Below, piece after piece: positions 34,464 to 61,663 of a stretch of DNA of 64,000 nucleotides. Below the pieces are notes generated by a model. The model was given only the letters and a program-made list of their open reading frames with translations. It was not told the origin of the DNA and made no database searches. Position 1 is the stretch's first letter, and the number at the start of each line of letters is the position of its first letter. The DNA is taken from the NCBI RefSeq assembly GCF_000147695.2, contig NC_015958.1, positions 2,100,001 to 2,164,000 on the forward strand. The letters are read 5' to 3'. The position numbers and the translations under genes are program-made. The stretch comes from Thermoanaerobacter wiegelii Rt8.B1 (GTDB lineage Bacteria > Bacillota > Thermoanaerobacteria > Thermoanaerobacterales > Thermoanaerobacteraceae).

Positions 34464-34469
34464 TGTTCT

Positions 34470-35068: not shown

Positions 35069-35813
35069 CATATTATCCCATAACCATATTTTACATTAAT
35101 TTTCATCAGCTTGTTGCGTGATGGTTAGCTTTGCTATGCCCTTTTTTCTCTTATTTTAATTTTATTAAATTTTTTCTTTGATTTTTTTATCACCCTCTTG
35201 ACATATTACCGAAATACTTTATCAAATATAGGTTTCATAACTCACCTCCATTCCTAATTCCAGTTTTGAAAATCTCATAAAAAAACGTACTTTTATATTT
35301 ATTTTCTCTTCATATTTTCTTCAAAAGTAAGTTTTAAAATAAAGATGAAAAAAGTTAACAATTTTTTGATAATATAGTTTTTAATACTTTGTGTGCGACC
35401 CTGCCATTCTTATGGCTCTGTCCTCTTCATCCTACAATGACTTTCCCCTGCTTAGAACTCAAATATATCTACCGTCTTTTGTCTTTTTTGTTTTGATTTT
35501 GTATTCGCATAAATAAAATGTGTTTTTTCCTCAAAATGATTACATAGATTATTGAGGACTGTTTTAACATCTCTGGGATAAATCTATACAGGTGGAAACA
35601 ACATATTTGTTTCTTTCATCATCGCAAATAATACTGTTATACCACATAATATAAATTTGTTTGCCGCCTTTCAAAACAAGGTCGTTGCAGCAAACAGATT
35701 AATAATTTATCTGCTTCACACTTGATTTGGAAAACAGCTAAATACTTACTCATTTTAAGTCCCTTAATTTAAATATCTTCTTCTAAAATTTACAAACAAT
35801 AGTTACTTATATT
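35069..35813. other. No intact gene; possible decayed minus-strand ORF
   Basis: About 745 bp, AT-rich. On the minus strand between about 35440 and 35800 short open stretches in shifting frames (MSKYLAVFQIKCEADKLLIC; IYIMWYNSIICDDERNKYVV) suggest a decayed protein I do not recognise. An ATPase gene that often follows the adjacent transposase type would be expected here but is not seen. Confidence 0.4.
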
Positions 35814-37172: not shown

Positions 37173-37296
37173 TTATATGTTCCCCCTTCACTTTTTTGAT
37201 TTCTTAATCGTAATTTTAGCTCATATCTGGGGGACATTAAAGGAAAAAGCTATGTTGCTAAGAAAAAATCAAAATTTTTATTTAAATCTTTCATGT

Positions 37297-37316
37297 TTAA
37301 TGCTAAAATTATGTGA
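37297..37316. repeat. Element repeat motif, internal copy
   Basis: TTAATGCTAAAATTATGTGA, 17 of 20 matching the motif at 37915-37934. It lies between the DUF6431 and transposase genes; candidate transposase-binding or regulatory site. Confidence 0.5.
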
Positions 37317-37890
37317 GAGGGGCCAGAAATGATTTTTGGCAATGGGCATAAAACTGTTGGGAAAAGAGTGGTACAATGTTTATTATGTCCAAAATCTCTC
37401 TGGCCCTCTCTCTTTGAGAACTAACCTCGAATAACTTTATGTAAGGGTCTATTTGCCTTAATCCATATATGATAAAACTTAAATTATTCATTATCCTTTT
37501 GGTGTAAAAATATATATGCTGTCTTGAAAATAGTATGGTAGGGAAGTTTCTTTTTAAGTCATTTATGAAAGAACTGAGAGTTTTTTCTCTTGTAAGTGTC
37601 TCTTTTAAAGACTTTACAATCATATTGAAAGAATACTGAAAATGAGGAATACAGAAATCAGGGAGGTAGGAAAGAGTCCTTTTGCACACAGGGCATATAT
37701 ACCTTCTTATGGCTATTTTTACACAGTTAGGTCCATCTAAATAGTAACGGTAGTAAAAACCGTGCTTTTTTAGTTTTACTCTGCACTTGCAGTCAGAATG
37801 AGGGCATCTGTCTGGTGGGTCAGGAAAATTGTAATCTTTACTTCTTTGCAAATATTCTTCAATGTTATCAACATGAAAAATTATTTGCAT
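37309..37890 (-). CDS. DUF6431 zinc-finger protein of transposable element
   Basis: 193 residues. The N-terminal part has a Cys-rich domain: CPHSDCKCRVKLKKHGFYYR and RRYICPVCKRTLSYLPDFCIPH, two zinc-binding Cys sets of the transposase-associated DUF6431 type. The rest is helical (FNMIVKSLKETLTREKTLSS). Proteins of this kind are found upstream of Mu/IS481-like transposases in clostridia, presumably as DNA-binding accessory. ATG 37890, GGAGATG upstream. The final residues may be affected by the overlap with the repeat at 37297. Confidence 0.7.
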   Translation of the reverse strand: MQIIFHVDNIEEYLQRSKDYNFPDPPDRCPHSDCKCRVKLKKHGFYYRYYLDGPNCVKIAIRRYICPVCKRTLSYLPDFCIPHFQYSFNMIVKSLKETLTREKTLSSFINDLKRNFPTILFSRQHIYFYTKRIMNNLSFIIYGLRQIDPYIKLFEVSSQRERAREILDIINIVPLFSQQFYAHCQKSFLAPLT

Positions 37891-37914
37891 AAAACAACAT
37901 CTCCAATTAAAAAA

Positions 37915-37964
37915 TTAATGCTAAAAGAATGTGATGAATTTTTTTCACATTCCTTTAGCATTAA
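37915..37964. repeat. Inverted pair of 20-nt motifs at element end
   Basis: TTAATGCTAAAAGAATGTGA (37915-37934) and its near-perfect inverse TCACATTCCTTTAGCATTAA (37945-37964). Together with 37297-37316 they form a three-copy set bracketing the DUF6431 gene, as expected for transposase-binding ends or a promoter-operator of the element. Confidence 0.65.
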
Positions 37965-38020
37965 TTTTATCACAAGATTATTTAATCTGAAAAATTTTAT
38001 CGGTTTTGGGCTGAATTAAT

Positions 38021-38575
38021 TTGAGAAATGACACTTATGAATTGTCTTCTACCTTTGGCTTTATGTTTATAGTTTTAGTTGCATTATGGTTAAGAACTCA
38101 CAACGTGAGAAACTCAATCAAAATACGATTAGACAATGGTGCAGAGTTTTGTGGAGGTAGTCAAAAAAAGCTTGAGGAGTGGAATAGTATGTTATACTAT
38201 CTTGGAGTAGAACTTAATCCCATTCCTCCTAGGGCAAAGCATCTAATGGGCATAATTGAAAATTCCCACAGAGCAGATGACGAATATTTTTTGATAATTC
38301 ATGCAGAAAGATGTAAAACAAAAGAAGAATTTATGGTAAGAGCTCAAAAGTGGCAAGATACATGGAACTTTTTTAGACCTCACAATGGGAAGGGAATGAA
38401 TGGGAGGACTCCTTTTGAAAAGTTTAAGGATTCCAAAGTGCTGGTTTCCTCCCATGTTTTCCTATTCCCCACCTTATTGCTTGAAGAAATTCTAAGAAAA
38501 GTAAATACCTTCTATACCCTCCTACGGAATAAATTAGGTAGTAAATATGTCTTCACCACGTACCGGATTTTTTGG
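38021..38575 (+). pseudogene. Integrase-type (rve) transposase, C-terminal fragment
   Basis: Frame covers the second half of an rve transposase: RNSIKIRLDNGAEFCGGSQ (second Asp), PPRAKHLMGIIENSHRADDE (catalytic Glu in IENSHRADDE), WQDTWNFFRPHNGKGMNGRT (terminal motif). The first catalytic Asp and the DNA-binding N-terminus are missing, cut by the DUF6431 element upstream. The tail after about 38575 is random. Confidence 0.75.
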
Positions 38576-41079
38576 TTAATTTTTGAAATACATTGCATAC
38601 ATAAACTCTTCTTGAAATGATGGCATACTTGATAATTCTATATACTTTATCATCTTTTTAATTTCTTCTGTCTTTTTTAGTTCATCCTCCGATAGTAAAG
38701 CCATCACTGCTCCTGTCCCTGCTGCATTTCCTATTTGTTCTACTCTGTCTTTTAGTTCTTTTGGTATTAACCCAATTGTAGCAGCACTTTCTACACTTAT
38801 ATAGTTACCAAATCCACCTGCAAAATACATTTTTTTGATGTCTTTCGCCTTTATCCCCATTTCTTTTATTAGTACCTTTATCCCCGCATATATTGCTCCT
38901 TTTGCTAGTTGTATTTGCCTTATATCTTTTTGTGTTAAATATATTCCATTTTCTTCATCAAGTTGAAAAGCTTTTTCGTCTTTGTATTCTTTTATTTTTT
39001 TATTTTTTCTATGATATCCAGTGGTATATCTTTATTCGCAATTTCTTCTCTTGAAAGTATTCTTCCTGTCATATCTACTATTCCTAGTTTTACAAGCTCA
39101 GCTATAGCGTCTACTACTCCTGAACCACAAATTCCTTTTGGCTCTGCATTCCCTATTGTTGTGTAGATGGGTCTTTTACTTAACTCTACATGATCAATTG
39201 CTCCCACAACTCCACCTATCCCAAATGTGATTCCTGCTCCTTCAAATGCTGGACCTGCAGCAGTTGAACAAGCAACAAGCTTTTCTCTATTTCCTAGAAC
39301 TATTTCTCCATTTGTCCCTATATCAACAAGCAGGCTTATTTCTTCTTTTTCATACATGCGGCTTGCTAATACAGCAGCAATTGTGTCTGCTCCTACATAG
39401 GAAGCTACCATTGGCAGTGTTATTATATACCCTTCTGGATTTATATTTATATTAAGCTCTCTTGCTTTTATCTCCATTTTGGAGGTAAAAGCAGGTATAA
39501 AAGGTGCATTTGCAATGTTTTTTGCAGGTACATTTAAAACAAAATGGATCATTGTAGTGTTTCCTACTAATATGACTTCATATATTCTTTGCCTACTTAT
39601 TTTATTTCTTTTGCAAAAGTTATTAATTATGTTGTTCATTTCTTCAATTATTTTCTCGTGCATTTTCTGAAGTCCATCTTCTTCTGTGATTGTGTAATCT
39701 ATTCTTGATATGATATCTGCCCCAAAGGTTTTTTGAGGGTTCAATGTGGAAATTACATCAATTTTTTCTCCAGTTTGTATGTTGTAAAGATACGCAGCAA
39801 TTGTTGTTGTACCTATGTCAATAGCTATGCCATATGTTTGGTTAAAACTTTCCAAGTTTTCTAACGAGATTATTTCATTATTTCGTATTACTGAGACAAT
39901 TTGATAATTATGTTTTTCTAAAATATCTGGCAATTTATTGAGGATTTTAAAAGGAATTTTTGTTTCTTTACCTAAAATATCAGTAATTCTTTCATAGTCC
40001 CCTCTTTGGTCTTCTAATGAAGGTTTGGAAAGGTCTAGAAATTTTTTCATTACTCTTGGCTTAAGTGATTTAAGTGATATTCCTTTGTTATCTGTCAGTA
40101 TTACTGCTTCCCCTTTTGTATCTGGTATGGTTATATTTAAATTTCTGTCCACATTTAAAAAGCAAGCAAGTCTTATATTTGATTTTATTTCTTCTTCTGT
40201 GAGAAACTTTTTTTCTACTTCGTTTATATCTGCATCCGAATCTACTATTATTTTGCATTTACCACATATATGATGTCCTCCACAATCGCTTGGAATGTTT
40301 ATGCTATTCTTAATTAGCGCTCTAAAAAGGTTTTCTCCTTTTTCAGCAAGTATTGTTTTCCTTTGTCCCATGTATTCTACATTTAATACATGCTTCGTCT
40401 TTTTTGATGTGTGTCGATAAATGCAGTTTACAAGGTCGCAATCTTCACACTCGTGGTCAATTAGTGATGTTTTAATATTCTTACCTATTCCATATATCAT
40501 AGAAGTTGATTTTGTAGGAGTCATCATGTAGTTTTCATTTAGAGATACCCCTATTGTTGAAGCATCAAGATTCTTAAAAATTATTCGCTGGTCTTTTATA
40601 TCCCATCTGCTATCCCCTGGACATAATCTATGTGTAATGCCAAGACCTTGCTTTGACACATCTTTCATCAGGTCTTGCCAAAACTTTTTGCTTAAATAGT
40701 CTAATGCAGCTACTCCAATAGACTCATATATCATGCCTTTCATGTAATCACCATTGTTAAAATAATAGGAAATTTTATCGTCTATTTCTTTGCCTAATGT
40801 CATAATTGCCATTATTATGTAGTCAGCGTCTTTTATATTCTTTACAGTATATTCATCTTTAAAAATACTTCCATCAGGTAAAATAATTTGTTTTTTGCTT
40901 TCATCATACTGTATTTTAAATTCGTCATAGCAGATTTTAGCATCTATTATTTGAGAAGATTCTTTAATAGCAATGTCTATTTCCTTTGAAATATCCTCTG
41001 GAACTTTTTTGTCTTTGTATCCAAGGTATTTTATTACAGATTCTTTATCAATTTCTATAGGATAGGCTTTTACTTTCAT
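38576..41079 (-). pseudogene. RamA-like corrinoid-protein reductive activase, copy 1, frameshifted
   Basis: ATP-dependent activase that re-reduces Co(II) corrinoid proteins. The two frames (41079-38992 and about 38990-38576) form an 830-residue protein. An N-terminal domain of about 230 residues resembles the MetH activation fold (IIMAIMTLGKEIDDKISYYF, GMIYESIGVAALDYL). A 2Fe-2S domain follows (CGGHHICGKCKI). Then an ASKHA ATPase domain (GIAIDIGTTTIAAYLYN, GADIISRIDYT, LVGNTTMIHFVL, LLVDIGTNGEIVLG, GICGSGVVDAIAEL, and in the last part YFAGGFGNYI). The break is at a run of seven A on the coding strand near 39000. Ends adjacent to a transposase remnant. Confidence 0.85.
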
Positions 41080-41133
41080 TTTTATCTTCCTTTTCGCATA
41101 TCATTTTTGTTATTGACATTAAGGCATTTAAAC

Positions 41134-42060
41134 TTATATTCTCCCTCTCGCTACATCAAACATTAATTGTATGTTTTCAAGATCTGCATCTCCTGGTATG
41201 TCACAGCCTGATGAGAGTACAAAGTGTTTTTTGTCTTTCATATCCTCTATTAACCGCCTTATTTCTTTTTCTACTTGTTCTCTTTTGCCATAGGCTACTG
41301 TTGAAACTGGGTTTAGGTTTCCTATTATAAGTACCCCATCTGGTATTTGAAATTTTACATCTCTTAGGCTTACATCGGAATCAAGGCTTAATCCATCACA
41401 TCCTGTTTTGACCATACTCGGTATTAGATGAGTGGTATTACCGCATATGTGTAGTATAGTAGGGTAATTCCAATATTTTTTTAACTGCTTTACATAGTTA
41501 CCTGAAAATTCTTCAAACATCGCAGGAGATAATACTGTAGCTGTTGGTTCTAATATGCACAAGGCATCAGCTCCTGCTTCTATTAGGGCATCTCCATACC
41601 TTTTTATGACTTCTACTGCAAAGTTTAATTCTTCGTGTACAAATTCAACTTCCATCATAGAATTTATAACGGTGTTCTCTGCTCCTGTCATCAGTCCTAC
41701 AAGTGTATATGGCCCTATCACATATGCTATTTTAGGTACATCAGGAAATTCTTTTGCCATCTTTTTTGTTACCTCTACGAATAAAGGCATTCTACCATCT
41801 TTTAAAGGGTTAGGGATTTTTAATTTTCTTAATTCCTCTATATTTGTTATTGGATGTTCTGAAACTGTATAGGATTCGTTTTCAGGCTTGTTTATTTTTA
41901 ACCCTAAGGCTTCTGCTTCAACAGAAAGGTCCATCATATATAAAACCGCATCGGGATTAAACTTCTCTTTTAATGCTTTTATAGTTTTAAATTGTGTTTG
42001 TGCATCTTCTAAGTTTTGTTTTATTGTTGTGTTTGTCAACTGAATACCTGGAAAACCCAT
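41134..42060 (-). CDS. URO-D family corrinoid methyltransferase (MtaA/MtbA-like)
   Basis: TIM-barrel methyltransferase, 308 residues from the first ATG. It moves a methyl group between a corrinoid protein and a thiol or other acceptor. Zinc ligands are recognisable: YPTILHICGNTTHLI (His-x-Cys) and FVLSSGCDIPG (Cys). Homology extends upstream of the ATG: the frame remains open for 18 codons to an ATA at 42112-42114 directly after AGGAGGGG, and reads DLLNALFKENKLPVVPLMGF, the family N-terminus. So the native start seems to be an ATA (possibly a mutated ATG). Fourth gene in the cluster activase-regulator-corrinoid protein-methyltransferase-activase. Confidence 0.85.
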   Translation of the reverse strand: MGFPGIQLTNTTIKQNLEDAQTQFKTIKALKEKFNPDAVLYMMDLSVEAEALGLKINKPENESYTVSEHPITNIEELRKLKIPNPLKDGRMPLFVEVTKKMAKEFPDVPKIAYVIGPYTLVGLMTGAENTVINSMMEVEFVHEELNFAVEVIKRYGDALIEAGADALCILEPTATVLSPAMFEEFSGNYVKQLKKYWNYPTILHICGNTTHLIPSMVKTGCDGLSLDSDVSLRDVKFQIPDGVLIIGNLNPVSTVAYGKREQVEKEIRRLIEDMKDKKHFVLSSGCDIPGDADLENIQLMFDVARGRI

Positions 42061-42200
42061 TAAAGGTACTACTGGTAGTTTGTTTTCTTTGAATAAGGCA
42101 TTAAGAAGGTCTATTTTTAACCCCTCCTATTTCATTTTTGTTTTATTTGAACATATTTTACAAAAGATACCATGTTTGGTATTCTTCTGCGTAACTTTTG

Positions 42201-42836
42201 CTATGCTACAACATATGTTTTTGCTAGTTCTGCGGCTTCTGCCGCATCCTTCGCATAACCATCTGCTCCTATTTCTTTTGCAAAATTTGCTGTTACAGGT
42301 GCACCTCCTACCATCACTTTAACTTTATCTCTTAAACCCGCATTTTTAAGCGCTTCAATTACATTTTTCATTTGTATCATCGTTGTCGTGAGTAAAGCTG
42401 ACATTGCAACAATATTAGGATTATACTCATTGACTGCTTCTATAAATTTCTCGGCAGATACATCTACTCCTAGGTCAATTACCTCAAAGCCTGCTCCCTG
42501 CATCATCATTTTTACTAGGTTCTTACCTATATCGTGTAGGTCACCTTGAACTGTACCTATCACCACTTTGCCAATAGGTTCTACACCAGATGCAGTAAGA
42601 AGTGGCTTTAACACGTCCATGCCTGCCTGCATAGCCCTCGCTGCAATCAATACCTCTGGTACATAAATCTCGTTGTTTTTAAATTTAACACCTACAATAC
42701 TCATTCCCTCAATAAGTCCATTATTCAAAATATCATTGGGCCTTATGCCATCATCCAAAGCTTTTTGAACCAACTCTTTAACTTTTTTAGCATTTCCTAC
42801 CTGTAATGCTTCTGAAATTTCCTTCAAAATTTCCAT
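42201..42836 (-). CDS. Corrinoid (B12-binding) protein, MtaC/MtbC type
   Basis: 211 residues. Residues 1-85 form the four-helix cap (KEISEALQVGNAKKVKELVQ, DILNNGLIEGMSIVGVKF, VPEVLIAARAMQAGMDVL), then the Rossmann-like B12 domain with DLHDIG at 99-104 providing cobalt-ligand His101, SALLTTTMIQMK and VGGAPVTANFAKEIGADGYA. Carries the methyl group between methyltransferases. ATG 42836 with GAGGAGG. A 42114 methyltransferase and two activases flank it. Confidence 0.92.
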   Translation of the reverse strand: MEILKEISEALQVGNAKKVKELVQKALDDGIRPNDILNNGLIEGMSIVGVKFKNNEIYVPEVLIAARAMQAGMDVLKPLLTASGVEPIGKVVIGTVQGDLHDIGKNLVKMMMQGAGFEVIDLGVDVSAEKFIEAVNEYNPNIVAMSALLTTTMIQMKNVIEALKNAGLRDKVKVMVGGAPVTANFAKEIGADGYAKDAAEAAELAKTYVVA

Positions 42837-42867
42837 AAAGCAAATCCTCCTCACTAAATTTAGTTTT

Positions 42868-44106
42868 TTATATATTGCCCCAGCTCATTTTTCTAAATTG
42901 ACCTGGGGATATTCCCTCATACTTTTTGAATACTCTAGTAAAATAACTCTGATCTTGAAATCCTACCATTAGTGCCACGTCGAGAATATTTAGATCCAAT
43001 CGCATCAGGTATTTCTTACTTTCTTCTACCCTTAATTTATTGAGGTAATCTGTATAGCTCATTCCCACCTCCTCTTTAAACAACTTTGAAAAATAATTAG
43101 GACTTAAATACACATACCTAGCAACCTCTTCAAGGGTCAGGCCTTTTTTATAATTCTTTTTTATATAATCAATAGCTTTATAAATTATTGTATTTTTAGA
43201 CTGGCCGATATTATATATACTCTCTGTAAACTTATCCAGGACTTTTACAAGCCAGTAGCACAGTTCATCAACATCAGATATGGCACCAACATCTTGAAAA
43301 TATTTTAAATTAAGGTCAAAAATCATTTCAAGGTCGGCACCACCTTCTACTGCTGCTCTTGACAGAATCACAACTAACTCCAAAGCCCTGGCTTTCATGT
43401 ATTCAAAATTGCCACCACTTTTAAAAAATATATGACCTAGCAGTTCATTTAACAAGGCCTTCGCCGCAATCTTTTCACCTGATTTTACTAGTCTTACCAG
43501 TTGCCTTTCTTTTTCAAAGGGATAATAGAAAAATGTGTTTTCATACTTTATCTCCTGTATCTCTTCGGCAATTCTGGCCTGCGACTCATAAAATTCTCTT
43601 TTGGCTTTTAACTGAAACATCTCTTCAGAACTTATGTGTTCTGACACCATAAGCAAAAGTTCTGATAGATAGCGAATGCGTTCTGGTATAAATACAGGTA
43701 TGCTTTTAAGAAATTGCTTTAATAAATCAAGCTGCTGACTATTTAAACCATATTTTTTTGCCATATCATCCAACATGATGTCATCAGGTTGAATCATCAA
43801 TACAGGTCCTGCCACTAAAATGGCAACCATCACCTTATTAATCACTACAGGCGCAGACCAATGTACAAGACCACCAAAGCAAGAAAATATATACGATTCT
43901 CCAAAGCTTTCGGCTCTATAACCTGACTCAATTTGGAGTTTTCTACAATAATTATCACCTACCAATTTCTTGAAATAACGGCAGAATTCATAGTTGTAAC
44001 TAGTTTGGTACAACACATCTCCCACAGGATTTATCGCGTATACGTCTATGCCAGTGGAATTTTTGTACGCATCCATACTCTTCTGCAGCACTTCCTTAGA
44101 TATCAT
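42868..44106 (-). CDS. PocR-AraC transcriptional regulator
   Basis: About 412 residues. The N-terminal 170 residues match the PocR sensory domain: INPVGDVLYQTSYNYEFCRYF with Cys and YCRKLQIESGYRAES, FSCFGGLVHWSAPVV, and VAGPVLMIQ. The C-terminal 100 residues are an AraC-type double HTH (LTLEEVARYVYLSPNYFSKLFK; ILDVALMVGFQDQSYFTRVF). PocR domains sense small molecules such as 1,3-propanediol and occur with corrinoid pathways. Start ATG 44106 follows AGGGG; TTG at 44115 would leave no spacing. Four bases from the stop of activase copy 2. Confidence 0.85.
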   Translation of the reverse strand: MISKEVLQKSMDAYKNSTGIDVYAINPVGDVLYQTSYNYEFCRYFKKLVGDNYCRKLQIESGYRAESFGESYIFSCFGGLVHWSAPVVINKVMVAILVAGPVLMIQPDDIMLDDMAKKYGLNSQQLDLLKQFLKSIPVFIPERIRYLSELLLMVSEHISSEEMFQLKAKREFYESQARIAEEIQEIKYENTFFYYPFEKERQLVRLVKSGEKIAAKALLNELLGHIFFKSGGNFEYMKARALELVVILSRAAVEGGADLEMIFDLNLKYFQDVGAISDVDELCYWLVKVLDKFTESIYNIGQSKNTIIYKAIDYIKKNYKKGLTLEEVARYVYLSPNYFSKLFKEEVGMSYTDYLNKLRVEESKKYLMRLDLNILDVALMVGFQDQSYFTRVFKKYEGISPGQFRKMSWGNI

Positions 44107-44118
44107 AGGAAACAACCC

Positions 44119-46616
44119 CTAAAAATACATTGCATTCATAAATTCTATTTGAAATTCTGGTATAGCAAAAAGTTCTATATATTTTACTTTATTCTTTATT
44201 TCTAATGCTAATTTTAAATAATCATTTGAAAGCAGAGCCATCTTAGCTCCTACTCCTGCTGCATTTCCTATTTGTATAATCCTATCTTTTAAAATCTTGG
44301 GAATAAGTCCAATATTTATAGCACTTTCTATTCTTATGTAGTTACCAAAACCTCCTGCAAAATAAACTTTCTGTATGTCTTCTGCTTCTATACCTAACTC
44401 ATTTATTAGTATGTTTATGCCAGCTGCTATAGCTCCCTTTGCTAACTGAAATTCCCTTATATCTTTCTGAGTTAATACAATTCCCGTTGAATCATCAAGT
44501 ACAAATGCAACCTGTCCGTTATATTCCACTAACCTTTTTAAAAGTCTGGGTTCCAATAAGTCTTCCAGTTCTTCAGCTTTGTGCATTTTTCCTGCCTCAT
44601 CAACTATACCTTTTTTAATAAGCTCAGAAACGGTATCTACGATACCCGAGCCGCAAATCCCTATAGGAGGTCTTTTGTCACCTATGGTTTTATAAATACT
44701 ATCGCTGTTAAGATCTACATAACTTATAGCGCCAGCTACACCAACTGTCCCAAAAGTTATTTCAGCACCTTCAAAAGCAGGACCTGCAGCTGCAGAACAG
44801 GATACCATCTTATCTTTATTACCGAGTACTATTTCGCCGTTTGTACCAATATCTCCTAGTAAACTCATCTCTTTACTCTCATACATGCCACTAGCGATAA
44901 TCGCTGCAATGGTATCTGCTCCTACGTATCCAGATACCATAGGCAGCATTACTATATAACCGTTAGGATTTATATTTATACCTATTTCACTCGCTTTAAA
45001 TTCCAATTCTTTAGTATATGCAGGTATGTAAGGAGCATTGGCGATATTGACACAAGGTATCCCTGCAAATATATGCATCATGGTGGTATTACCTACTACT
45101 ACAATTTCATATATGTCATTGCTGTTTATGCCATTCTTTTGGTAAAAATAAGCTAGGATATTGTTAACTTCATCTATTATTGAATTGTGAAGGTCCTCTA
45201 ACCCTTTTGGGTTTGTAATAGTGTAGTTTATCCTTGTTATCACATCGGCTCCATAAGGCTTTTGAGGATTGAGGTTTGAATAAACATCAAGTTGTTTTCC
45301 TGTATTTAAATCTATGAGATATGCAACAATTGTCGTCGTGCCTATGTCCATCGCTATACCATAAAGACTTTTGTTGTTTGGAGATACTACGTCTAAAAGT
45401 TCTCCATTTCTTATTACAACATTTATGTTAAATTCGTTTTGTCTTAAAACATTAGGTAACTTTCGTATAACATTGGGAACTGATTTTATTCTTCCAATAT
45501 TATATTCCAATCGCTTGAGGTCATCCCTTTGATCATCTAATTCTGGTCTTTTCATTATAACATTTATTTTTTTCACTCTAAGCTTTAACTCTATTTCTTT
45601 TTCATCACCTACTGATAATATTTTCGCATCTTTGTTTACTTCTGGTACTATAACTTCCATATCTTGATCAATAAAAATAGTGCACGCTAATCTATAGCCT
45701 TTTTGGGTATCTTGTAGAGATATAAATTTCTTTTCTGCTGGAGTTAATTGATTAAATTGTTTCACAGGGTGCATTATAACCCTGCATTCTCCACATGTTC
45801 CATGCCCACCACAAGAACTCTGTACGGGTATTTTGTTTTCCATAAGCAAGTCCCATAAGCGTTTACCTCTCTACTTCTACCGTTAGCTTGTTATTTCCAT
45901 TAATTATATCTACTTTATACCTTTCTTTTAATCTTGGTGTAATTCTAAAAGAACAATCCTTTATTTCGCAGTCTGCACAGTCATGATCCACAACAGCTAT
46001 AGGTATGTTTTTACCCATTCCATAAACCACAGATATAGATTTAATAGGCTTCATCATAAAGTTTTCCGATAATTCTACACCTATAGAACTACCATCAAGG
46101 ATGCTAAATATCATTTTTTGAGCCTTTAAATCCCAATCCTTATTACCCGGGCTTAATCCCCGTGTTATACCAACGCCTTCATTTTTCGCTTTATTCACTA
46201 GGTCAAGCCAGAATTTTCTCATAAGGTTGATCAATGCCGCGGTACCTATGGCATCATAAATCATTCCTTTTAAGTAATGTCCTTGGCTAAAATATTTATC
46301 ACACATTTCATCAATGCCTGGGCCTATAGTAGCTATAGCTATAACCATGGAATCAGCTTCTTTTATATTTTTTTATGAGATAGTCACTTTTAAATTGATA
46401 CTTGCCGTCAATTAAAACAACTTTTTCTTGTTCATTTACTTCAAAAGGCAATCTTTCATAAACCACCATAGGTTTTATAAGCGACATGGAATGAGATATA
46501 GTTTCATCCACTTCATTTAATATATCCTGTGGTATATTGTTAAGTTCATTATATCCTAAGTTTTTGAAAACAATATTTTTATCTATAAACACCTCTCTAT
46601 TTTTTTCAATTGGCAT
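44119..46616 (-). pseudogene. RamA-like activase, copy 2, two frameshifts
   Basis: Same architecture as copy 1: N-terminal activation-like domain (46616 inward, MPIEKNREVFIDKN), 2Fe-2S motif SCGGHGTCGECRV and ASKHA domain (IAMDIGTTTIVAYLID, GADVITRINYT, VVGNTTMMHIFA, GDIGTNGEIVLG, GSGIVDTVSEL, YFAGGFGNYI). Frame changes at a run of seven A on the coding strand near 46366 and by one missing base near 45852 (VEVERG, then KRLWDLL). ATG 46616 follows AAGGGGA. The sequence between is well conserved. Paralogue of 38576-41079, first gene of this cluster. Confidence 0.83.
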
Positions 46617-46664
46617 ACGAAACTTCCCCTTTTTTATACTATAGTACCACGCAGGAATATACAT

Positions 46665-47168
46665 ATCTTTTAATTTGCTATGATTTTTTTAAATTTTATA
46701 TGCTAATGTTATACCAAAAATGTTACACAAAACAACATCAAACCCTCTTACACAAGTCCAAACTCATGGTAAGTATCTTTAACTTGAGTTCGGCAAGTGG
46801 CAAACAGAATAAAAAGAGAGTTGTTTTTATTTCATTATTGCCTTTTTTATCCATAGCTTTAACTGTAGGCCTCTACCTTTTATACCTCATATTTTTCTAG
46901 AGTACTTATAGATAAGGTGATTATAAGGAGGCACTTTTAACTCACATACTGGCAATTTTTATTATCTATAAGTGCCATAAGAGGATTATATTGATATTGA
47001 TATAGCTATGCTCATATTAGCTGGAAATGGTCTCAGAAAACACTGTACTCGATTTAAAATACAATCTGTTTAAGCCCATACAGGCAATGCTTTTTAAATT
47101 TTTGACGACATAAAGATACGTGAATTGATGTCGAGGATGACCAATGACCTCCACAACATCAAAGCTGT
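46665..47168. other. No clear gene; inverted repeats
   Basis: Plus-strand 44-codon frame at about 46767-46901 ends in a membrane-helix-like stretch but has no ribosome-binding site. An IR, ACTTATAGATAA (46904-46915) / TTATCTATAAGT (46972-46983), overlaps GGCACTT (46930-46936) / AAGTGCC (46980-46986), two alternative pairings. Promoter of the activase cluster should lie at the left end. Confidence 0.4.
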
Positions 47169-47735
47169 CATGGCTTAGCTCCAGATACAAAAGCAGCAAG
47201 AATGCTACTAAATCAAGTACGAAATGAGTATAAAACTAAAACTGCTAAGACCCTGGATGTATTAGAAACTGGTTTTGAGGATGCTATAACCGTATTAAAG
47301 CTTCCTGATCGTTATCGAAAAAGGCCTCAATACTACTAATAGCCTAGAACGGCTAAATGAAGAAATCACCAGCGTGAAAGAATAATCAGGATATTTCCCA
47401 ACTAGCAATCGGCTGAAAATTACTAATGGAACAGTATGAAAAATGGGCTTCTACTAAAAAGTACTCGATATAGCCGAGTACTTTGAATAGCAGAAAGAAG
47501 ACCTCTAAAAAATCAAAGGAAAAGGTAGTTTCAATAAGATAGCCATAACTGTTAATAACCGCCGGAAGCCCTTCTGGTCAAGAACCGACAAAAGCTAGTG
47601 GCAGCGTATCCTTGACCCCTAAGGGCTAGAGGCAGTATTCTCGACAAATGGTGGTAATTAGATCACTTGATTTTAACCAGAGTGAATTTTACACAAACAA
47701 ATGGCTTTGATCTCTTTTACCATTATGGCGCTTAG
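47169..47735 (+). pseudogene. IS256-type transposase, heavily decayed fragment
   Basis: Readable pieces in shifting frames: TKAARMLLNQVRNEYKTKTA and DVLETGFEDAITVLKLPDRY, then LNTTNSLERLNEEI (mutator-family C-terminal signature with the catalytic Glu), and LDIAEYFE. The end at about 47690-47735 reads NFTQTNGFDLFYHYGA before a stop. Many stops and shifts; older decay than the IS256-type element at 19.3 kb. Confidence 0.7.
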
Positions 47736-47792
47736 AAATGTCAAATATAGTTTGTTATGGTAAGAGAAGCCTTTAAACAAGGATTCACATCT

Positions 47793-48905
47793 TTAATATT
47801 TCCCATATTCCATAGCTGTTTTATACATAGCAACAATTGCTTCCGGTTTTACGTCTGGCCCAATATGATTTGCTGGTGCAACAATATATCCACCACCATC
47901 TCCAAGCTCTTTTATGCGTGTTTTTACTTCCTTTTTTGTAGCTTCTACTCCCGAAGGCAATGCACTTTGTATATCAACTGCACCTAAAAATGTAACATAT
48001 TTTCCGTATTCTTTCTTTATAGCAGTGTTATCCATTCCTGTATTTGGTTGAAGTGGATGTATTATATCTATTCCAGCATCGATGAATTCAGGTATAAATG
48101 GTGTTATAAAACCATCACTGTGTGCAAGTACATAAACATTAGGTGACATTCCTTTCACGAGTTCAACGATTTTTTTGTACCACGGTTTAAAATATTTATT
48201 AAAAAGGTCTACTGATATTAGGGGACCTGCCTGCGAACCATAATCATCGCCAGGAAGCTCATATATATCTATAAAATCTTTGACATTTTCTAAATATACC
48301 TTAGTGAGATTTAATATTGTATTTCCAACATGGTCCACAATACATTTCGCAATACTTTCATCTATCATCATATCTACTAAAAATTGCTCCGAACCTCTTA
48401 GATGTTCAGATTGCTCCATAAATCCATATGAGCATACAGATCGAGCAACTACTGCATACCCAGCTTCTTTATATTGTTTCGCTTTTTCAATAACATCAGG
48501 GCTTATCTTATAATCATCAGCATTTGGCCATGCATAATTCTCTATATCCTTTATTGTAGCATCCGCAAGTGTTGCGCTTGTATGTAAAAATTCGCCCGAT
48601 TTCTCTATTGTTTGTCCCCAGCCATTGCGGAAAATCCCTCCATCCTTTTTCACAAGGTCAGGTGTTGGCATATAAATATACCTAAAATCAATATTTAATA
48701 CGGATAAAACTCTTTCATCAAGATAATTACTTGTTTTAAATCCATCATTTCTAAATGGCTTCCAATCATCTGATAAACCAAGATATCTAATTAAATTTTT
48801 ATATGCAATATCATTAATATTATATGCACTTCCACCAAGTGCAAGCGGCACTCTATCTGGTACCTCATGTTTTAATGTTCTTAATACCCTTTCTCTGCTA
48901 TTCAT
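47793..48905 (-). CDS. URO-D family protein linked to PTS operon
   Basis: 370 residues of the uroporphyrinogen decarboxylase/methyltransferase superfamily. Motifs: MNSRERVLRTLKHEVPDRVP at the start, IDIYELPGDDYGSQAGPLIS, YVLAHSDGFITPFIPEFIDA and FLGAVDIQSALPSG. Where zinc methyltransferases have His-x-Cys, this one has His-Ser-Asp, and the later Cys is replaced by Ala in GGYIVAPANHIG, so it may not be a zinc methyltransferase. ATG overlaps the EIIA stop (ATGA), so it is translationally coupled to a PTS subunit. Last gene of the PTS operon. Substrate unknown. Confidence 0.85.
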   Translation of the reverse strand: MNSRERVLRTLKHEVPDRVPLALGGSAYNINDIAYKNLIRYLGLSDDWKPFRNDGFKTSNYLDERVLSVLNIDFRYIYMPTPDLVKKDGGIFRNGWGQTIEKSGEFLHTSATLADATIKDIENYAWPNADDYKISPDVIEKAKQYKEAGYAVVARSVCSYGFMEQSEHLRGSEQFLVDMMIDESIAKCIVDHVGNTILNLTKVYLENVKDFIDIYELPGDDYGSQAGPLISVDLFNKYFKPWYKKIVELVKGMSPNVYVLAHSDGFITPFIPEFIDAGIDIIHPLQPNTGMDNTAIKKEYGKYVTFLGAVDIQSALPSGVEATKKEVKTRIKELGDGGGYIVAPANHIGPDVKPEAIVAMYKTAMEYGKY

Positions 48906-49315
48906 AATACAACACCTCCAATGTCTTCAGATTTATATACCTTTATGCCATCAATACCCCAAGTTACTATTTGATTTGCAAGATTATTAAGGTTTTCTAC
49001 TTTTCTCTGAACAAATGTCTCTAAAAGCATAGGTAAATTTATACCTGTTACCATTGCAACATTTTTACGATAGCACACTATTTCTGCCGCTATATTTGCA
49101 GGACTTCCCCCAGGTATATCTGTTAAAATCAGAACGCCGTCTCCCTCGTCAAGCTCTTTTGCATACTTATAAGCCTTTTTGCGAAAATCATCAATATTAT
49201 CACCCGATTTTAGACCAACACTTGCAGTTAGCTCTTGCTTGCCAAGCACCATATTTACCACATCAATCATTGCGTCAGCCAATACTCCATGTGTTAGTAA
49301 TAAAATTCCTACCAC
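48902..49315 (-). CDS. PTS mannose-family EIIA subunit
   Basis: 137 residues. Phosphorylatable His9 in GILLLTHGVLADAM, then GDGVLILTDIPGGSPANIA and VAMVTGINLPMLLE, the EIIA-Man pattern. Passes phosphate from HPr to EIIB. GTG start with AGGAGG nine bases upstream. It is separated from EIID by about 310 bp, unusual in an operon of this type. Confidence 0.92.
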   Translation of the reverse strand: MVGILLLTHGVLADAMIDVVNMVLGKQELTASVGLKSGDNIDDFRKKAYKYAKELDEGDGVLILTDIPGGSPANIAAEIVCYRKNVAMVTGINLPMLLETFVQRKVENLNNLANQIVTWGIDGIKVYKSEDIGGVVL

Positions 49316-49627
49316 AGTTGTAGCCTCCTATCTCAATATTTTGTGATTAACTCAATTAAGCTCGTATAAAATAATGATTTAGATTAAATTTATCAATTAA
49401 TCAAAAAAAGATTTTTGATTCTTGATAATATGCGTACTTTTATGAAAATTAATTTAGGTTAAGCTGCGAGCAGTACTCCTAACACCTCCTGTAGCCTGGA
49501 ATAACCGGCAACTATTCGAAAAAGGGAGAGACCCTTACAGTGTGGTACAATTTTTATGTGTGAGCTGAGCTAGCAAGCCATCTAGCCTCTTCATAGCAAG
49601 AATTAGCCCGAATAAACCGGGCTAAAA
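49316..49627. other. Structured spacer inside PTS operon, no gene
   Basis: The minus-strand RNA between EIID and EIIA has several stems: TTAGCCCG/CGGGCTAA (49603-49625), GCTAG/CTAGC (49569-49586), AAGGG/CCCTT (49522-49536), and is GC-richer than its flanks around 49450-49600. No recognised riboswitch or intron. Could be an insertion scar or an RNA element. Confidence 0.45.
49603..49625 (-). terminator. Hairpin after EIID gene
   Basis: 8-bp stem TTAGCCCG/CGGGCTAA with a 7-nt loop, three bases beyond the EIID stop. No strong T-run follows on the minus strand, so possibly a processing or partial-termination site. Confidence 0.55.
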
Positions 49628-50467
49628 CTAAAAAATATGCAGTAAAGATCCTAACAGGCCTATTATAACTGTAAAACCTAATAGTTTCATGACAGACCAG
49701 TTTTTATATTGATGTAAATACCATATCAACCCTATCCATAATAAAGGTAACACCTTAGGCATCATACTATCAAGTATAGACTGCAGTGTTGTTTCTTTAT
49801 TTTGAACAATCCATTTAAGCGGTGTTGTAAGATTTACAAAGTTTGCACTTAATGCACCAACAACAACCAATCCAAGAATACTTAAGCTTATTGTTACTTT
49901 GTTTATTGTTTCGGGCGTAAGGAACTCTGAATTAATAAGGTTTACGCCCATACGATATCCTATATTAATACCTAATTTTGTCACATACCATGCTAATGTA
50001 GCCCACGCAGCAACGAATAATATCGGGCCAAATATATTACCCTGCATCGCGAGTCCCATTGCAAAGCTTAATAATATAGCATTTATAGCACTACTCCATA
50101 GAGAATCACCTATTGCAGCGAAGGGCCCCATAAGACCACTCTTTATTGCATTTACAGTATCATCTGGTATGTCTTCACCCGCTGCCTTCTCTTTTTCTAT
50201 TGCTGCGACTGCACCAATTATAGGACTACCTATAACCATTTCAGTATTGAAGAATACCATATGACGTTTTAATGCTTTTCCAAGGTCGTCTTTATTTTTA
50301 TAGAGTTTTCTCAAAACAGGTAAGAGGCTCCAAGCGAATGCGATATGCTGCATACGTTCCCAATTCCATGCTGATGTGTTAAAGAAAAGCCATCTTAATG
50401 CTACTTTGGTTAAATCTTTTTTTGTTATTTCTTCACTTTTACTAACAATACCTGATTTCTCGTTCAT
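49628..50467 (-). CDS. PTS mannose-family EIID subunit
   Basis: 279 residues, membrane component. Motifs: NTSAWNWERMQHIAFAWSLLP, FFNTEMVIGSPIIGAVAAIE, GLMGPFAAIGDSLWSSAINA, and a C-terminal membrane helix pair. ATG overlaps the EIIC stop (ATGA), AGAGGAGG upstream. Together with EIIC it forms the sugar channel. Confidence 0.94.
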   Translation of the reverse strand: MNEKSGIVSKSEEITKKDLTKVALRWLFFNTSAWNWERMQHIAFAWSLLPVLRKLYKNKDDLGKALKRHMVFFNTEMVIGSPIIGAVAAIEKEKAAGEDIPDDTVNAIKSGLMGPFAAIGDSLWSSAINAILLSFAMGLAMQGNIFGPILFVAAWATLAWYVTKLGINIGYRMGVNLINSEFLTPETINKVTISLSILGLVVVGALSANFVNLTTPLKWIVQNKETTLQSILDSMMPKVLPLLWIGLIWYLHQYKNWSVMKLLGFTVIIGLLGSLLHIF

Positions 50468-51237
50468 AATGAAGCCTCCTCTGGCTTTTTATTGTTAATA
50501 TAAATCAAATTGATTAATACAAGGGCTATACCTATTACAGATGCTGGGAGAATCTGAATTTTTAATGTTGCCACCATTATAAAACCCAAGAGGAAAAATC
50601 CTATATATTTTACATCTTTTATTAGCATCTTTAAGAGTACAGCCATTCCTAATGCTGGTAATAAACCACCAATAACTGTCAGTGCATTTGTGAGCCATGC
50701 GGGTATAAGGTTTGCCATGTTTTGCGCAATAGGGGCACCAAAATATAAAACTAAAAATGCAGGTACAAACCTCAAAATGAAAGCAAAAATTTGTGGTAAA
50801 CCCATAACCATAAATGTTAAACCCTTTGTATTTCCTTCTTCAGCATATTTATCTGCTATATGGGCAAAAAATACGCCGACTGTTGCAAAAAGCTGCCATG
50901 TAAATGTCCCAACAAGACCAAGTGGAACTGCAAGTGTAATAGCGACTTCTGGTTTAACATGTGATATCATCGCTAATGCTGTTCCGACATAGCCTGCGAA
51001 ATTCAGATCTGCCGCCATAGCTCCACCTGGTGTTATTGCGCCTATATACATAGCATTGATTGTTGCACCTATTATCATGCCAGTCTTTACATCACCAAGT
51101 ATCAATCCAACAATTGTACCCGCAATAAGCGGACGACCAAATGCCTGATAACCAATTGTCTGCCCACCAAGCCACGGTGTAGCAATCCATGCAAGATATG
51201 CAAAAAATGCTATCGCAATTGCCTGCCACAACGCCAT
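50464..51237 (-). CDS. PTS mannose-family EIIC subunit
   Basis: About 257 residues, multi-helix membrane subunit. Motifs: GRPLIAGTIVGLILGDVKTG, GAITPGGAMAADLNFAGYVGT and the alternating hydrophobic helices with PALGMAVLLKMLI. ATG 51237 is preferred (AGGAG eight bases upstream); the ATG at 51246 would directly abut that site. Substrate class not determined by sequence. Confidence 0.93.
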   Translation of the reverse strand: MALWQAIAIAFFAYLAWIATPWLGGQTIGYQAFGRPLIAGTIVGLILGDVKTGMIIGATINAMYIGAITPGGAMAADLNFAGYVGTALAMISHVKPEVAITLAVPLGLVGTFTWQLFATVGVFFAHIADKYAEEGNTKGLTFMVMGLPQIFAFILRFVPAFLVLYFGAPIAQNMANLIPAWLTNALTVIGGLLPALGMAVLLKMLIKDVKYIGFFLLGFIMVATLKIQILPASVIGIALVLINLIYINNKKPEEASL

Positions 51238-51249
51238 AAATACCATCTC

Positions 51250-51735
51250 CTATTCTTTTATTACTTTTTCCCATGTATATTTTGTATCATCAGGAACCAT
51301 TTGAAAATAAATATTGAAGCCTTTCGCTTTTATTGATTTTAAATCTGCTATTTCATTTTCACTTAGATAAACATTTGATGTAATCTTCTCCCTCTCAGGA
51401 GTTTTGCCGGAATTTCCTACATTAATTTCAGCAGGAAATATATCTTTATCACATGAATCTATTAGCTCCTTAGCAGTTTTTGTAGTTTTAACAATAATCA
51501 TGATATTGTCAATCTGACTATTTTTTAGCATATCTGCTGCATTTTTGATTGTAACAACCTTTACTTGAACTCCTTGTGGTGCTGCCATTTTTAATACCTT
51601 TGATAATAAGAGATTATTTGCACTTTCGTCATCAACAACCAGTATGTTTTTCGCTTTAGTGTATCCAACCCATGCAGTAACAACTTGACCATGTATTAGC
51701 CTTTCATCGATGCGAAACAAAACTACTTTGCTCAT
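51250..51735 (-). CDS. PTS mannose-family EIIB subunit
   Basis: 161 residues. MSKVVLFRIDERLIHGQVVT with phospho-accepting His15; AAPQGVQVKVVTIKNAADML and NVGNSGKTPEREKI follow. ATG 51735 has AAAGGGGTGA upstream; a longer frame from 51789 has no site. First structural gene after the sigma-54 promoter. Confidence 0.93.
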   Translation of the reverse strand: MSKVVLFRIDERLIHGQVVTAWVGYTKAKNILVVDDESANNLLLSKVLKMAAPQGVQVKVVTIKNAADMLKNSQIDNIMIIVKTTKTAKELIDSCDKDIFPAEINVGNSGKTPEREKITSNVYLSENEIADLKSIKAKGFNIYFQMVPDDTKYTWEKVIKE

Positions 51736-51822
51736 TTTTAAAGTCACCCCTTTGTTATTATCCACCTTTTTGTTATTGTTTTCTTCCAATCACCACCTTT
51801 TTTTAATCTACCCTTTATATAA

Positions 51823-51838
51823 AGCAAATTTCATGCCA
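51823..51838 (-). promoter_or_regulatory. Sigma-54 (-24/-12) promoter of PTS operon
   Basis: TGGCATGAAATTTGCT: TGGCA and TTGC with canonical spacing, 88 bp upstream of the EIIB ATG and downstream of the LevR-type activator gene. Predicted target of that activator. Confidence 0.85.
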
Positions 51839-51871
51839 ACTCTATATTTTCAATAGTATAGAGTATGTGTT

Positions 51872-51888
51872 TAAAACACTATAAAACA
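51872..51888. repeat. 17-nt motif shared with the levR promoter (54616-54632)
   Basis: TAAAACACTATAAAACA occurs identically at 51872-51888 (upstream of the sigma-54 promoter) and 54616-54632 (upstream of the activator gene). Candidate binding site (UAS) of the LevR-type protein or another regulator. Confidence 0.55.
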
Positions 51889-51897
51889 AAAGGAGGC

Positions 51898-54600
51898 TTA
51901 TCCCTCCATCAAATACTGAACAATATATGCTACCTCGCTATCAGGTATCAGTATATTAAGTTCCCTTTCAATAATAGAAAGTGCTGAACTTACCGTATCC
52001 CATTCGTGTTTATACTCGCTTCTTATTTTTTCCTCTTTTGGCCATTTTCCAAAATCCTCACCAGAGATAATTCTTTCTACAAGACAGCTTAAATGAAGAG
52101 TAAGATTTATAATTTGATGCGTTTTTAATTTAAATCCAGATTCTTTTAACCTATTAATAATTGATGTACATAATTTATATATCTTTTTATTATCAAGAAA
52201 GCGAAGATAATATTTGAGAACATTCTCTATTTCCGTTGGTGTAATATCTATGTTTACATTTTCTAAATTTAATAATTTTGCAATTCTATTCTCCCCATCA
52301 CCAAAAAATAAATCTTCAAGTGATATAAATGGTACACCGGGTATTTTTAAATCTACACTACCAACTATAGCTACAGGCTTTTCCTTTTTCTTAAAATAAT
52401 CCGCTTTCAAACCAGATTCTATATCGATCCCATTTATGTTAAGCGTAACTAAGTTTATATCATCATCTTTTATTAAATCTCTTATCAATTCTTTTAAACG
52501 AGTCGCTGTACCTTTTCCTGTTATACATGTTAATATTAAAGTTTTACTTTTTTTATTTTCGTCAACAACCCAGTAGTCTGGATATTTATTAAAATTTTCA
52601 ATTTCTGCACTTAAATCTTCAAGTTTCATTCTTCTTGCTTTTCGAACCGCTTCAATAACCATAGATGTATTTACATTTTCAATAATATTAATCTTAATTC
52701 CGGTTTTCGCCGCTATTATTTCTCCCCATGACACAAATCTCTTTATATCTACTAAAAGCAGTACCCCATTCCCCTTATCAGCTCTGATCACTTCATTCAT
52801 AGCATACTCTAAATATTGTTTTGGATCAGAATCTACTGGAATATCTATTGGTATAGCAATATCAGAACCTATAATTTTATTTGCTGTCGCTACCATACTT
52901 GAAGCAGTGCTATCACCATAACACATAACAACTACACCTACAGGTTTCTCTATTGCATCTTCATTTTTTTCATTTGATCGAATTAGCATTGCTAAAAAGC
53001 TCGCTTCATCTGCAGGTATATCTAACTTGAGTCTCTCTTTCATTAATTCTACTATCATGTTAGCAACATTTAATTCTTCTGGATACTCTCTTTTTATTTT
53101 ATCGATATATGGATTCTCTATCCTTAGTCCAGACATAATTCGCTCACGGCAGGCATATATATGTAATGCCAGCGCAGGTAATATATTTTTATCTATTTCA
53201 ACTTTTAAATTCTGTTTTATTATTTTTACACATTCATTGGCTATAGATAAGACATCTTGCCCAATGATATTTGTTAAGTTTAAAATAACCCTATCTTTAT
53301 TTTGATAGATTTTATTTATATGATTTTTATAATAATTTTCTAAAAGACTTTTAGCCTTACTCCACTTTTTCTCCACCGTATTTTTATTTTTCTCTTTTTC
53401 ATTTAATAATGAATAAATTTCACCTATCACATCATCGTCATAAGCATCTTCTTTGTCAAAATTCCATTCTTCATCGAGCATAATATTAATTAATAAAAAA
53501 TCATCACATGAATTATCGTTTAATAGCACCTTTTTTACATGTGGTGGCAAATCTTCTCTTGTTATTTTAATCTCATACATTCCATTTTTTATAGCGTTTA
53601 ATAATGCTTTTGCACAGGTAACCTTTATATCATTAATTAGTTGTCCTATATTTCCTATACAATCATACATTATAAAACTTTTAATAACATCTGTTGCAAT
53701 TTTCAATGGTCTTCCGATCTTATGGGCTTCCTGTGTAAAAAATTGCTTTACCATTAATTTCTTTTCCGCAATTGGCCTCTCAGATAAAGATGGTATCCTT
53801 ATTACAACAGGAAAACGGCGATAAAAAGTATTTAATAAAGAGGAATGTGGATCCGCAGTTGTGGCACCAATTATCATTGTTTGGCATGTTCTAAATCCGT
53901 TTGTTTCCCCAAGGCGTCTATATTGCCCCGTATCCATTAAATAAAAAAGCATTTCCTGTCCTTCAGGTGGTAACCTGTGAATCTCATCAAGAAATAAAAT
54001 GCTATTATTCGCACTATCAACAAGGCCAGATTTCTCATTGTTTGCACCTGTAAAAGCACCTTTAATATGTCCGAATAAGTGGCTCATCAAAAGCTGTGGA
54101 TTATGAGCATAATCAGCGCAATTGAAAGCCACAAAATCTGATTTATCAGAAATTCTACCAATATTTTTTGCATATTCAAACATTTTTTTGGCAAAATAAG
54201 TTTTACCAGATCCAGTTGGTCCTATAAGTAGTGTATGGAGTCCAAATGGTGGATAATTTATCGCTGCTCTAGCTTCGTCTATCGCATCTCTTAAGCTCAT
54301 ATTCCATCCTATTATTGAAGAAAAAGGATCAACTTCGATTTTTAATGTATTTAAAGAATCATTACTTTTATAATATTGTTCATAATATTTCTTCGAAATA
54401 AACCTTACGGGTCTTCCATTAAATTTTATAACAATTCCCGCTTTTACAAGTGAATTTAAATCGCTACTGGCATTACACCGTGATATACCAGCTTCGCGTG
54501 CAACCTCTTCTGCAGTAAAACCAATTTCAAATTTAATTAATTCTTTGTTTTTCTCTGATAGTTTATTTAATGCAAGAAGTACTTTTTGTTTTCTCTCCAT
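51898..54600 (-). CDS. levR: LevR-type sigma-54 activator with PTS regulatory domains
   Basis: About 900 residues. HTH (EEVAREAGISRCNASSDL, residues 31-48), AAA+ domain with Walker A GPTGSGKT (127-134) and the sigma-54 loop GAFTGA (181-186), Walker B FLDEIHRL. Two PRDs flank an EIIA-Man-like domain and an EIIB-like region: PRD1 LALHIYACRERI, PRD2 LTLHLSCLVERI. In the EIIA-like domain the expected HGxSTASSM reads YGDSTASSM, so the phospho-His is Tyr. Start ATG 54600 with AGGGGG. Activates the PTS operon through the sigma-54 promoter; PTS phosphorylation tunes it. Confidence 0.92.
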   Translation of the reverse strand: MERKQKVLLALNKLSEKNKELIKFEIGFTAEEVAREAGISRCNASSDLNSLVKAGIVIKFNGRPVRFISKKYYEQYYKSNDSLNTLKIEVDPFSSIIGWNMSLRDAIDEARAAINYPPFGLHTLLIGPTGSGKTYFAKKMFEYAKNIGRISDKSDFVAFNCADYAHNPQLLMSHLFGHIKGAFTGANNEKSGLVDSANNSILFLDEIHRLPPEGQEMLFYLMDTGQYRRLGETNGFRTCQTMIIGATTADPHSSLLNTFYRRFPVVIRIPSLSERPIAEKKLMVKQFFTQEAHKIGRPLKIATDVIKSFIMYDCIGNIGQLINDIKVTCAKALLNAIKNGMYEIKITREDLPPHVKKVLLNDNSCDDFLLINIMLDEEWNFDKEDAYDDDVIGEIYSLLNEKEKNKNTVEKKWSKAKSLLENYYKNHINKIYQNKDRVILNLTNIIGQDVLSIANECVKIIKQNLKVEIDKNILPALALHIYACRERIMSGLRIENPYIDKIKREYPEELNVANMIVELMKERLKLDIPADEASFLAMLIRSNEKNEDAIEKPVGVVVMCYGDSTASSMVATANKIIGSDIAIPIDIPVDSDPKQYLEYAMNEVIRADKGNGVLLLVDIKRFVSWGEIIAAKTGIKINIIENVNTSMVIEAVRKARRMKLEDLSAEIENFNKYPDYWVVDENKKSKTLILTCITGKGTATRLKELIRDLIKDDDINLVTLNINGIDIESGLKADYFKKKEKPVAIVGSVDLKIPGVPFISLEDLFFGDGENRIAKLLNLENVNIDITPTEIENVLKYYLRFLDNKKIYKLCTSIINRLKESGFKLKTHQIINLTLHLSCLVERIISGEDFGKWPKEEKIRSEYKHEWDTVSSALSIIERELNILIPDSEVAYIVQYLMEG

Positions 54601-54615
54601 ACAATACCCCCTATC

Positions 54616-54632
54616 TAAAACACTATAAAACA
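54616..54632. repeat. 17-nt motif, second copy
   Basis: Identical to 51872-51888, 16 bp upstream of the levR ATG. Confidence 0.55.
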
Positions 54633-54784
54633 CTACAGAAATTATTATAAATCACAAAACAATAACTGTAAAGCTTATCATATGAAAAAGTCTGTGTCAA
54701 GTTTTCGTTATAAATTGCAATATTAAATGCAACACTTAATGAAAATCATGTAGATATAGGATTTGGGACAAATCATATATAACC

Positions 54785-56011
<1,227 letters not shown>

Positions 56012-56060
56012 TCTATTTTTTTATCTGTTGCATTTAATTATACAACTAACCAGCAAAAAT

Positions 56061-60181: not shown

Positions 60182-60211
60182 ATCGAAACCTCCTTAAACA
60201 TAAATATAATT

Positions 60212-61661: not shown

Positions 61662-61663
61662 TT

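Follow-up and report, generated by a model that had tools for sequence, protein, structure and literature searches.

Corrinoid O-demethylases and methyltransferases of the UroD superfamily, such as MtvB, OdmB, VdmB and CdmB, act on aromatic methyl ethers and haloalkanes (PMC13222342); none of them is known to be connected with sugars or with a PTS. Another described group, the type 1 mlp clusters, is defined by the presence of Mlp2 and Mlp3 and is characterized by a His-Cys-Cys URO-D protein, one corrinoid protein, a Ram/RACE-type activase and no folate methyltransferase (Kountz & Balskus, PMC10418091). The LevR/DgaR-regulated sigma-54 mannose PTS operons (DagR, NF047795) are in turn recognized by the architecture of their activator, a -24/-12 promoter and separate EIIA, EIIB, EIIC and EIID genes. 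The corrinoid systems found in the open-access literature deal with aromatic ethers, quaternary amines, haloalkanes and methyl-Se/S compounds; in that literature, outside which most subscription papers fall, no description of a PTS-URO-D system or of a sugar-demethylating corrinoid system was found.

The locus considered here lies in a window of 64,000 nucleotides, the whole stretch of DNA that was analysed, from the genome of Thermoanaerobacter wiegelii Rt8.B1. It shares with the LevR/DgaR-regulated operons the activator architecture, the promoter and the separate EII genes, but the PTS genes are followed by a URO-D protein of 370 aa (URO-D370) and not by a known sugar-phosphate enzyme. With MtvB, OdmB, VdmB and CdmB, URO-D370 shares the URO-D fold MT1 superfamily, and its relatives are likewise found beside genes for corrinoid proteins, pterin methyltransferases and activases, although it is very distant from those enzymes in sequence.

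Organization and control region of the PTS operon

The mannose-family PTS recognized in the initial annotation is present at 48902-51789, with genes for EIIB, EIIC, EIID and EIIA. On the minus strand the order is activator, palindrome, -24/-12 site, EIIB, EIIC, EIID, spacer, EIIA and URO-D370. The activator (51898..54633, minus strand, 911 aa) is of the LevR/DagR type, with Sigma54_activat, two PRD and an EIIA-man domain (Pfam, NCBIfam); it scores below the DagR cut-off of NF047795 (522 vs 1400), and an orthologue 51% identical occupies the same position in two of the relatives' loci (L072 and L073). The EIIB (51250..51789; PTSIIB_sorb, 155 bits), EIIC (50464..51246; orthologues 76-78% identical) and EIID (49628..50467; orthologues 74% identical) genes, all on the minus strand, belong to the mannose/sorbose family, the listed TTG start of EIIB being probably too far upstream. 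The EIIA of the mannose family (48902..49315, minus strand; EIIA-man, 84 bits) has its phospho-acceptor His in LLLTHG, and URO-D370 (47793..48905, minus strand; PF01208, 62 bits, over the cut-off) starts within the EIIA stop, the two genes sharing ATGA at 48902-48905 as first described. The PTS genes are followed by no enzyme gene other than that of URO-D370, and no other catabolic enzyme is encoded in the operon.

Control by sigma-54, also claimed initially, is borne out at the level of the sequence. The -24/-12 promoter TGGCATGAAATTTGCT (51823..51838, minus strand) is the only perfect match to TGGCAYN5TTGCW within the window, where 0.13 would be expected by chance, and RpoN is encoded in the genome. 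Moreover, a perfect palindrome, GTGTTTTAAACAC (51867..51879), lies upstream of the -24/-12 site, at 40 nt from start to start, and is a candidate operator. The palindrome and the 40-nt spacing are identical in the window and in the relatives' PTS loci L072, L073 and L100, the -24/-12 site is identical or nearly so in the window and the three relatives' operons, and GTGTTTTAAACAC has no further exact copy either in the window or among the 133 loci compared.

The EIID and EIIA genes are separated by 312 nt (49316..49627, minus strand), against some 60-70 nt in G132 and G423, two of the genomes discussed below. A repeat or a known RNA was considered for this spacer and rejected, since it has no match in Rfam or in the compared loci. 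It contains a terminator-like hairpin (49625-49603) and, given this hairpin and the greater length, co-transcription in this genome is not certain. Judged from its genes and predicted control elements, the PTS part is a self-contained operon under sigma-54/LevR control, in which URO-D370, last in order in this genome, is an integral and conserved gene.

Conservation of the PTS-URO-D pairing

Relatives were sought in 398 genomes of the phylum, and a family search added G423. The nearest relatives of URO-D370 found, 66% identical, come from G132, G242 and G423, three genomes that belong to a different, distant family within the phylum, and all of which carry LevR-EIIB-EIIC-EIID-EIIA-URO-D with the same ATGA overlap. 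Such a neighbourhood survey had been named beforehand, in the initial annotation, as one of the checks of the proposed coupling, which a lack of conservation would have refuted, and the pairing was found to be conserved. In these three operons an EI gene lies downstream of URO-D; in G132, for which Pfam was run, the two have an HPr gene between them. On sequence grounds, the PTS/URO-D pairing is real and the URO-D protein is a regular part of this type of PTS.

Across nine further Thermoanaerobacter genomes, one of them of the same species, no counterpart of URO-D370 and no URO-D gene of any kind was found; the 2.79-Mb single-contig genome studied here has only two such genes, and the window contains both. 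No PTS-type orthologue was found in the order to which genome G142 (see below) belongs. A plasmid collection yielded distant relatives of URO-D370 only, of which one stands within a cluster of sugar genes, and a scan of genome contigs gave one distant relative.

The neighbouring corrinoid cluster

Beside the PTS operon, on the same strand, lies a set of genes that was initially taken as a complete system for corrinoid methyl transfer. All the named genes are indeed present, but completeness did not hold: both activases are frameshifted, the URO-D protein of the set starts with ATA, and there is no pterin-type second methyltransferase (MT2). Two genes are intact: the PocR-AraC regulator (42868..44115; PocR, 97.6 bits, and HTH_AraC) and the corrinoid methyl-carrier protein (42201..42854; B12-binding_2 and B12-binding, with GDLHDIG and TIGR02370 over the cut-off). 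The MtaA/Mlp-like Zn-type URO-D protein (URO-D308; 41134..42114) has the ligands of the His-Cys-Cys Zn S/Se-methyltransferases, H204, C206 and C286 (HxC...C). Its expected start codon is ATA (42114-42112), TTG in the nearest relative, with a good Shine-Dalgarno sequence, and the first ATG comes 18 codons further in, at 42060.

The two activases are of the RACo/RamA type. In copy 1 (38576..41079), which has an N-terminal MetH-activation-like domain, the frame shifts once, at an A7 tract (~38992-39037); in copy 2 (44119..46664) it shifts twice, near 45865 and 46360, and the coding sequence is spread over three reading frames (ORFs of 103, 161 and 576 aa). The shifts were traced in alignments of the DNA with intact activases and with copy 1. 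Since three shifts occur in two genes while long neighbouring genes are intact, decay rather than assembly error is suggested. No other strain with the same cluster was found in which the frameshifts could be checked, and the second genome of the species has neither of the URO-D genes.

With frameshifted activases and no pterin-type MT2 except a probable MetH, the set falls short of a three-component O-demethylase system. Only two Pterin_bind genes occur in the whole genome, probably encoding dihydropteroate synthase (271-aa frame) and MetH (813-aa frame). As to the type 1 mlp clusters, the set shares with them the His-Cys-Cys URO-D protein, the single corrinoid protein, the Ram/RACE-type activase and the lack of a folate methyltransferase, but differs in its PocR-AraC regulator and damaged activases. 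Identity with these clusters, which requires both Mlp2 and Mlp3, was rejected because only one of the two URO-D genes of the genome is Mlp-like.

The local set may be either a fading partner of the PTS operon or an unrelated relic. The odds are about even that the cluster at 38576-46664 is a separate, decaying remnant of an Mlp-type methyl-sulfur/methyl-selenium cluster with no relation to the PTS operon. The link of the His-Cys-Cys site of URO-D308 to S/Se methyl transfer (PMC10418091) points in this direction, as do the damage to both activases and to the start codon, and the transposase remnant that stands between the cluster and the operon. Furthermore, no corrinoid genes were seen in the 18-20 kb covered around each of the PTS-URO-D operons of G132, G242 and G423, and the closest mapped corrinoid proteins of G132 and G242 are more than 100 kb away or on another contig. 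Against a relic, the PocR and corrinoid protein genes have remained intact, the absence of both URO-D genes from the nine other genomes of the genus fits a joint arrival, and in G181 a gene of the URO-D370 type stands beside PocR, a corrinoid protein, a URO-D308 homologue and an activase, that is, the same set as in the window. The relic reading covers the neighbouring cluster only, and is compatible with O-demethylation by the PTS operon itself.

Between copy 2 of the activase and URO-D370 there is a decayed spacer of about 1.1 kb (46665..47792) with no intact ORF and an IS256-like remnant on the plus strand. A decayed transposase had been reported at this place, and a remnant is found at ~47200-47400, weakly supported by a match of a 63-aa fragment to NF033543 (E=4e-4); its match to the window's own IS256-type transposase is also weak.

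Relatives of URO-D370 and their gene contexts

In a maximum-likelihood tree, the four URO-D proteins of the PTS operons group as a single clade (100/100), whose sister group (100/99) consists of four proteins from other loci (L074, L075, L076 and L077). All of these sister members are found among sugar genes: those of L074 and L076 are in operons of ABC sugar transporters with FucI-like isomerases, that of L075 has a SorC-type regulator on one side and an FGGY kinase on the other, and that of L077, from G142, is in the operon transaldolase-transketolase-URO-D-corrinoid protein-LacAB/RpiB-LacD. In this last locus (L077:4029-5871) the corrinoid protein gene directly follows URO-D, which makes it a good system in which to test sugar demethylation. 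A corrinoid protein gene is adjacent in this sister member, about 5 kb off behind the decayed spacer in the window, and distant in G132 and G242.

More distant members of the family (L086, L104, L107 and L112) adjoin genes for a corrinoid protein, a pterin methyltransferase or an activase, and the relative in G069 lies within a run of corrinoid protein, pterin methyltransferase and URO-D genes. A corrinoid protein of the local kind is found in 32/32 genomes with the URO-D370 type, compared with 170/398 overall (hypergeometric 2e-13), and in 24/24 when counted by genus (1e-9). Seven relatives lie within ~3 kb of a corrinoid protein, against an expectation of 0.4-0.8. All these tests are inflated by shared ancestry and by URO-D-rich genomes. 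These gene contexts support a link of the URO-D370 type to both corrinoid chemistry and sugar metabolism. Acetyl-CoA synthase is present in all seven genomes of the PTS and sister clades that were tested, and absent from the genome studied here.

The closest relatives of the local corrinoid protein (71-73%) occur in a run of aldolase II, GH106 rhamnosidase and corrinoid protein genes. This run is found by ABC sugar transporter genes in another family of the class (L124-L128, e.g. L124:8924-13280), and is a second hint of B12-dependent sugar handling.

Active site and fold of URO-D370

Membership of URO-D370 in the URO-D superfamily is indicated by the PF01208 match, and a weak fold model agrees: the structure predicted from two sequences (pLDDT 60, pTM 0.66) supports the URO-D fold only, the metal site not being placeable. 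A phmmer search with the single sequence against solved structures gave nothing real. The family profile, however, matched MtaA first and CdmB second, both corrinoid methyltransferases, ahead of true uroporphyrinogen decarboxylase.

The putative metal site of URO-D370 is H262-S-D264 ... N346-H347. In the PTS clade both Cys ligands are lost (HxD...N, then His), so that metal binding is not assured. The pattern in most relatives of URO-D370 is HxC...H or HxC...N. Neither the site His nor a conserved Asp varies. As HxD...N replaces HxC...C, URO-D370 was not filed with the His-Cys-Cys Zn S/Se-methyltransferases. The HxC...C soft site has been tied to S- and Se-methyl transfer, and in O-methyltransferases carboxylates or non-ligands replace one or both Cys (PMC10418091). 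Zinc is not used at all by some corrinoid MT1 enzymes, e.g. CdmB (PMC13222342). The HxD...N site would thus fit an oxygen substrate, a fit which is not a proof.

The same replacement can be read in another way, namely that this branch was recruited for corrinoid-independent chemistry on sugars or sugar phosphates, as an isomerase, a lyase or an aldolase-like enzyme, and that the association with corrinoid genes comes from further URO-D paralogues of the same genomes. Many relatives in sugar operons, with FucI-like isomerases, Gfo/Idh/MocA, DeoC or ROK genes, have no corrinoid gene nearby, and the Pfam score of 62 bits is modest. We consider this less likely than demethylation, in view of the sister-clade member that stands, in a sugar-phosphate operon, directly before the gene of a corrinoid protein, the co-occurrence with a corrinoid protein in all 32 genomes with this type, the corrinoid methyltransferase as best profile match in the structure library, and the invariance of the site His and the conserved Asp.

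Proposed function

O-methylated sugars are widespread components of the polysaccharides and glycolipids of plants, algae and bacteria. The reading that we prefer, with a probability of roughly 0.45, is that URO-D370 may be a corrinoid-dependent O-demethylase (MT1) acting on a methyl sugar imported and phosphorylated by the PTS. The substrate, the chemistry, the partner proteins and the role of the damaged corrinoid set that we infer would be as follows. EIIBCD and EIIA would import and phosphorylate an O-methylated hexose or a methyl hexoside; URO-D370, as substrate:corrinoid methyltransferase, would bind the ether or glycosidic oxygen at the His/Asp-type site and transfer the methyl group to a corrinoid protein in the Co(I) state. 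The demethylated product would be a plain hexose phosphate, passing straight to glycolysis, which would explain an operon without other catabolic enzymes. With a URO-D enzyme as the only candidate catabolic gene, the possible substrates are narrowed to sugars that a single step converts to a central hexose phosphate.

Where the operon occurs in acetogenic-type genomes, the methyl group could continue via a pterin methyltransferase and tetrahydrofolate to the Wood-Ljungdahl pathway. In the present genome, without acetyl-CoA synthase, the only visible exits for it would be the MtaA-like URO-D308, with a thiol-type acceptor, or the probable MetH. The initial annotation had proposed a pathway in which PTS uptake is coupled to URO-D chemistry on an imported sugar, perhaps O-methylated. 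Its pairing of the two has stood, and demethylation of an imported O-methyl sugar may be the chemistry concerned; the neighbouring set as a complete working partner is left unsupported, because of the apparently broken activases and start codon and of the decayed transposase that separates it from the PTS.

It is tentatively suggested that a PTS-coupled corrinoid O-demethylase of this kind could belong to a broader, as yet undescribed group of operons for the B12-dependent demethylation of sugars in the phylum. If true, PTS sugar uptake would be joined to C1/acetogenic metabolism, and the many 'uroporphyrinogen decarboxylase family' genes that stand in sugar operons would gain a suggested function.

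Insertion-sequence debris and other features of the window

That the EIIA/URO-D overlap is a functionless chance junction left by transposition, as the abundant insertion-sequence debris of the region might suggest, is so improbable that it was ruled out, the same gene order and junction (to the base), promoter and operator being found in three genomes of another family.

The debris, of the IS481, IS30 and IS21 types, is located on both flanks, at 34400-38620 and 54903-57158. Beyond it, at 57412-63772, there is a second mannose-family PTS (EIIB/C/D) with no EIIA gene seen nearby, accompanied by two GPI-type cupins, a damage-control phosphatase and a 585-aa protein, part of which weakly resembles phosphomannose isomerase; a gene for a GntR-UTRA regulator is found just outside the window. 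Three Rfam matches mark group II intron RNA domains at 1853-2427. Finally, a ribose-type ABC transporter is encoded at 20944-28696 together with tagatose-kinase-like, tagatose/fructose-bisphosphate aldolase and 1-phosphofructokinase-like genes, likely a pathway for tagatose or a related ketose.
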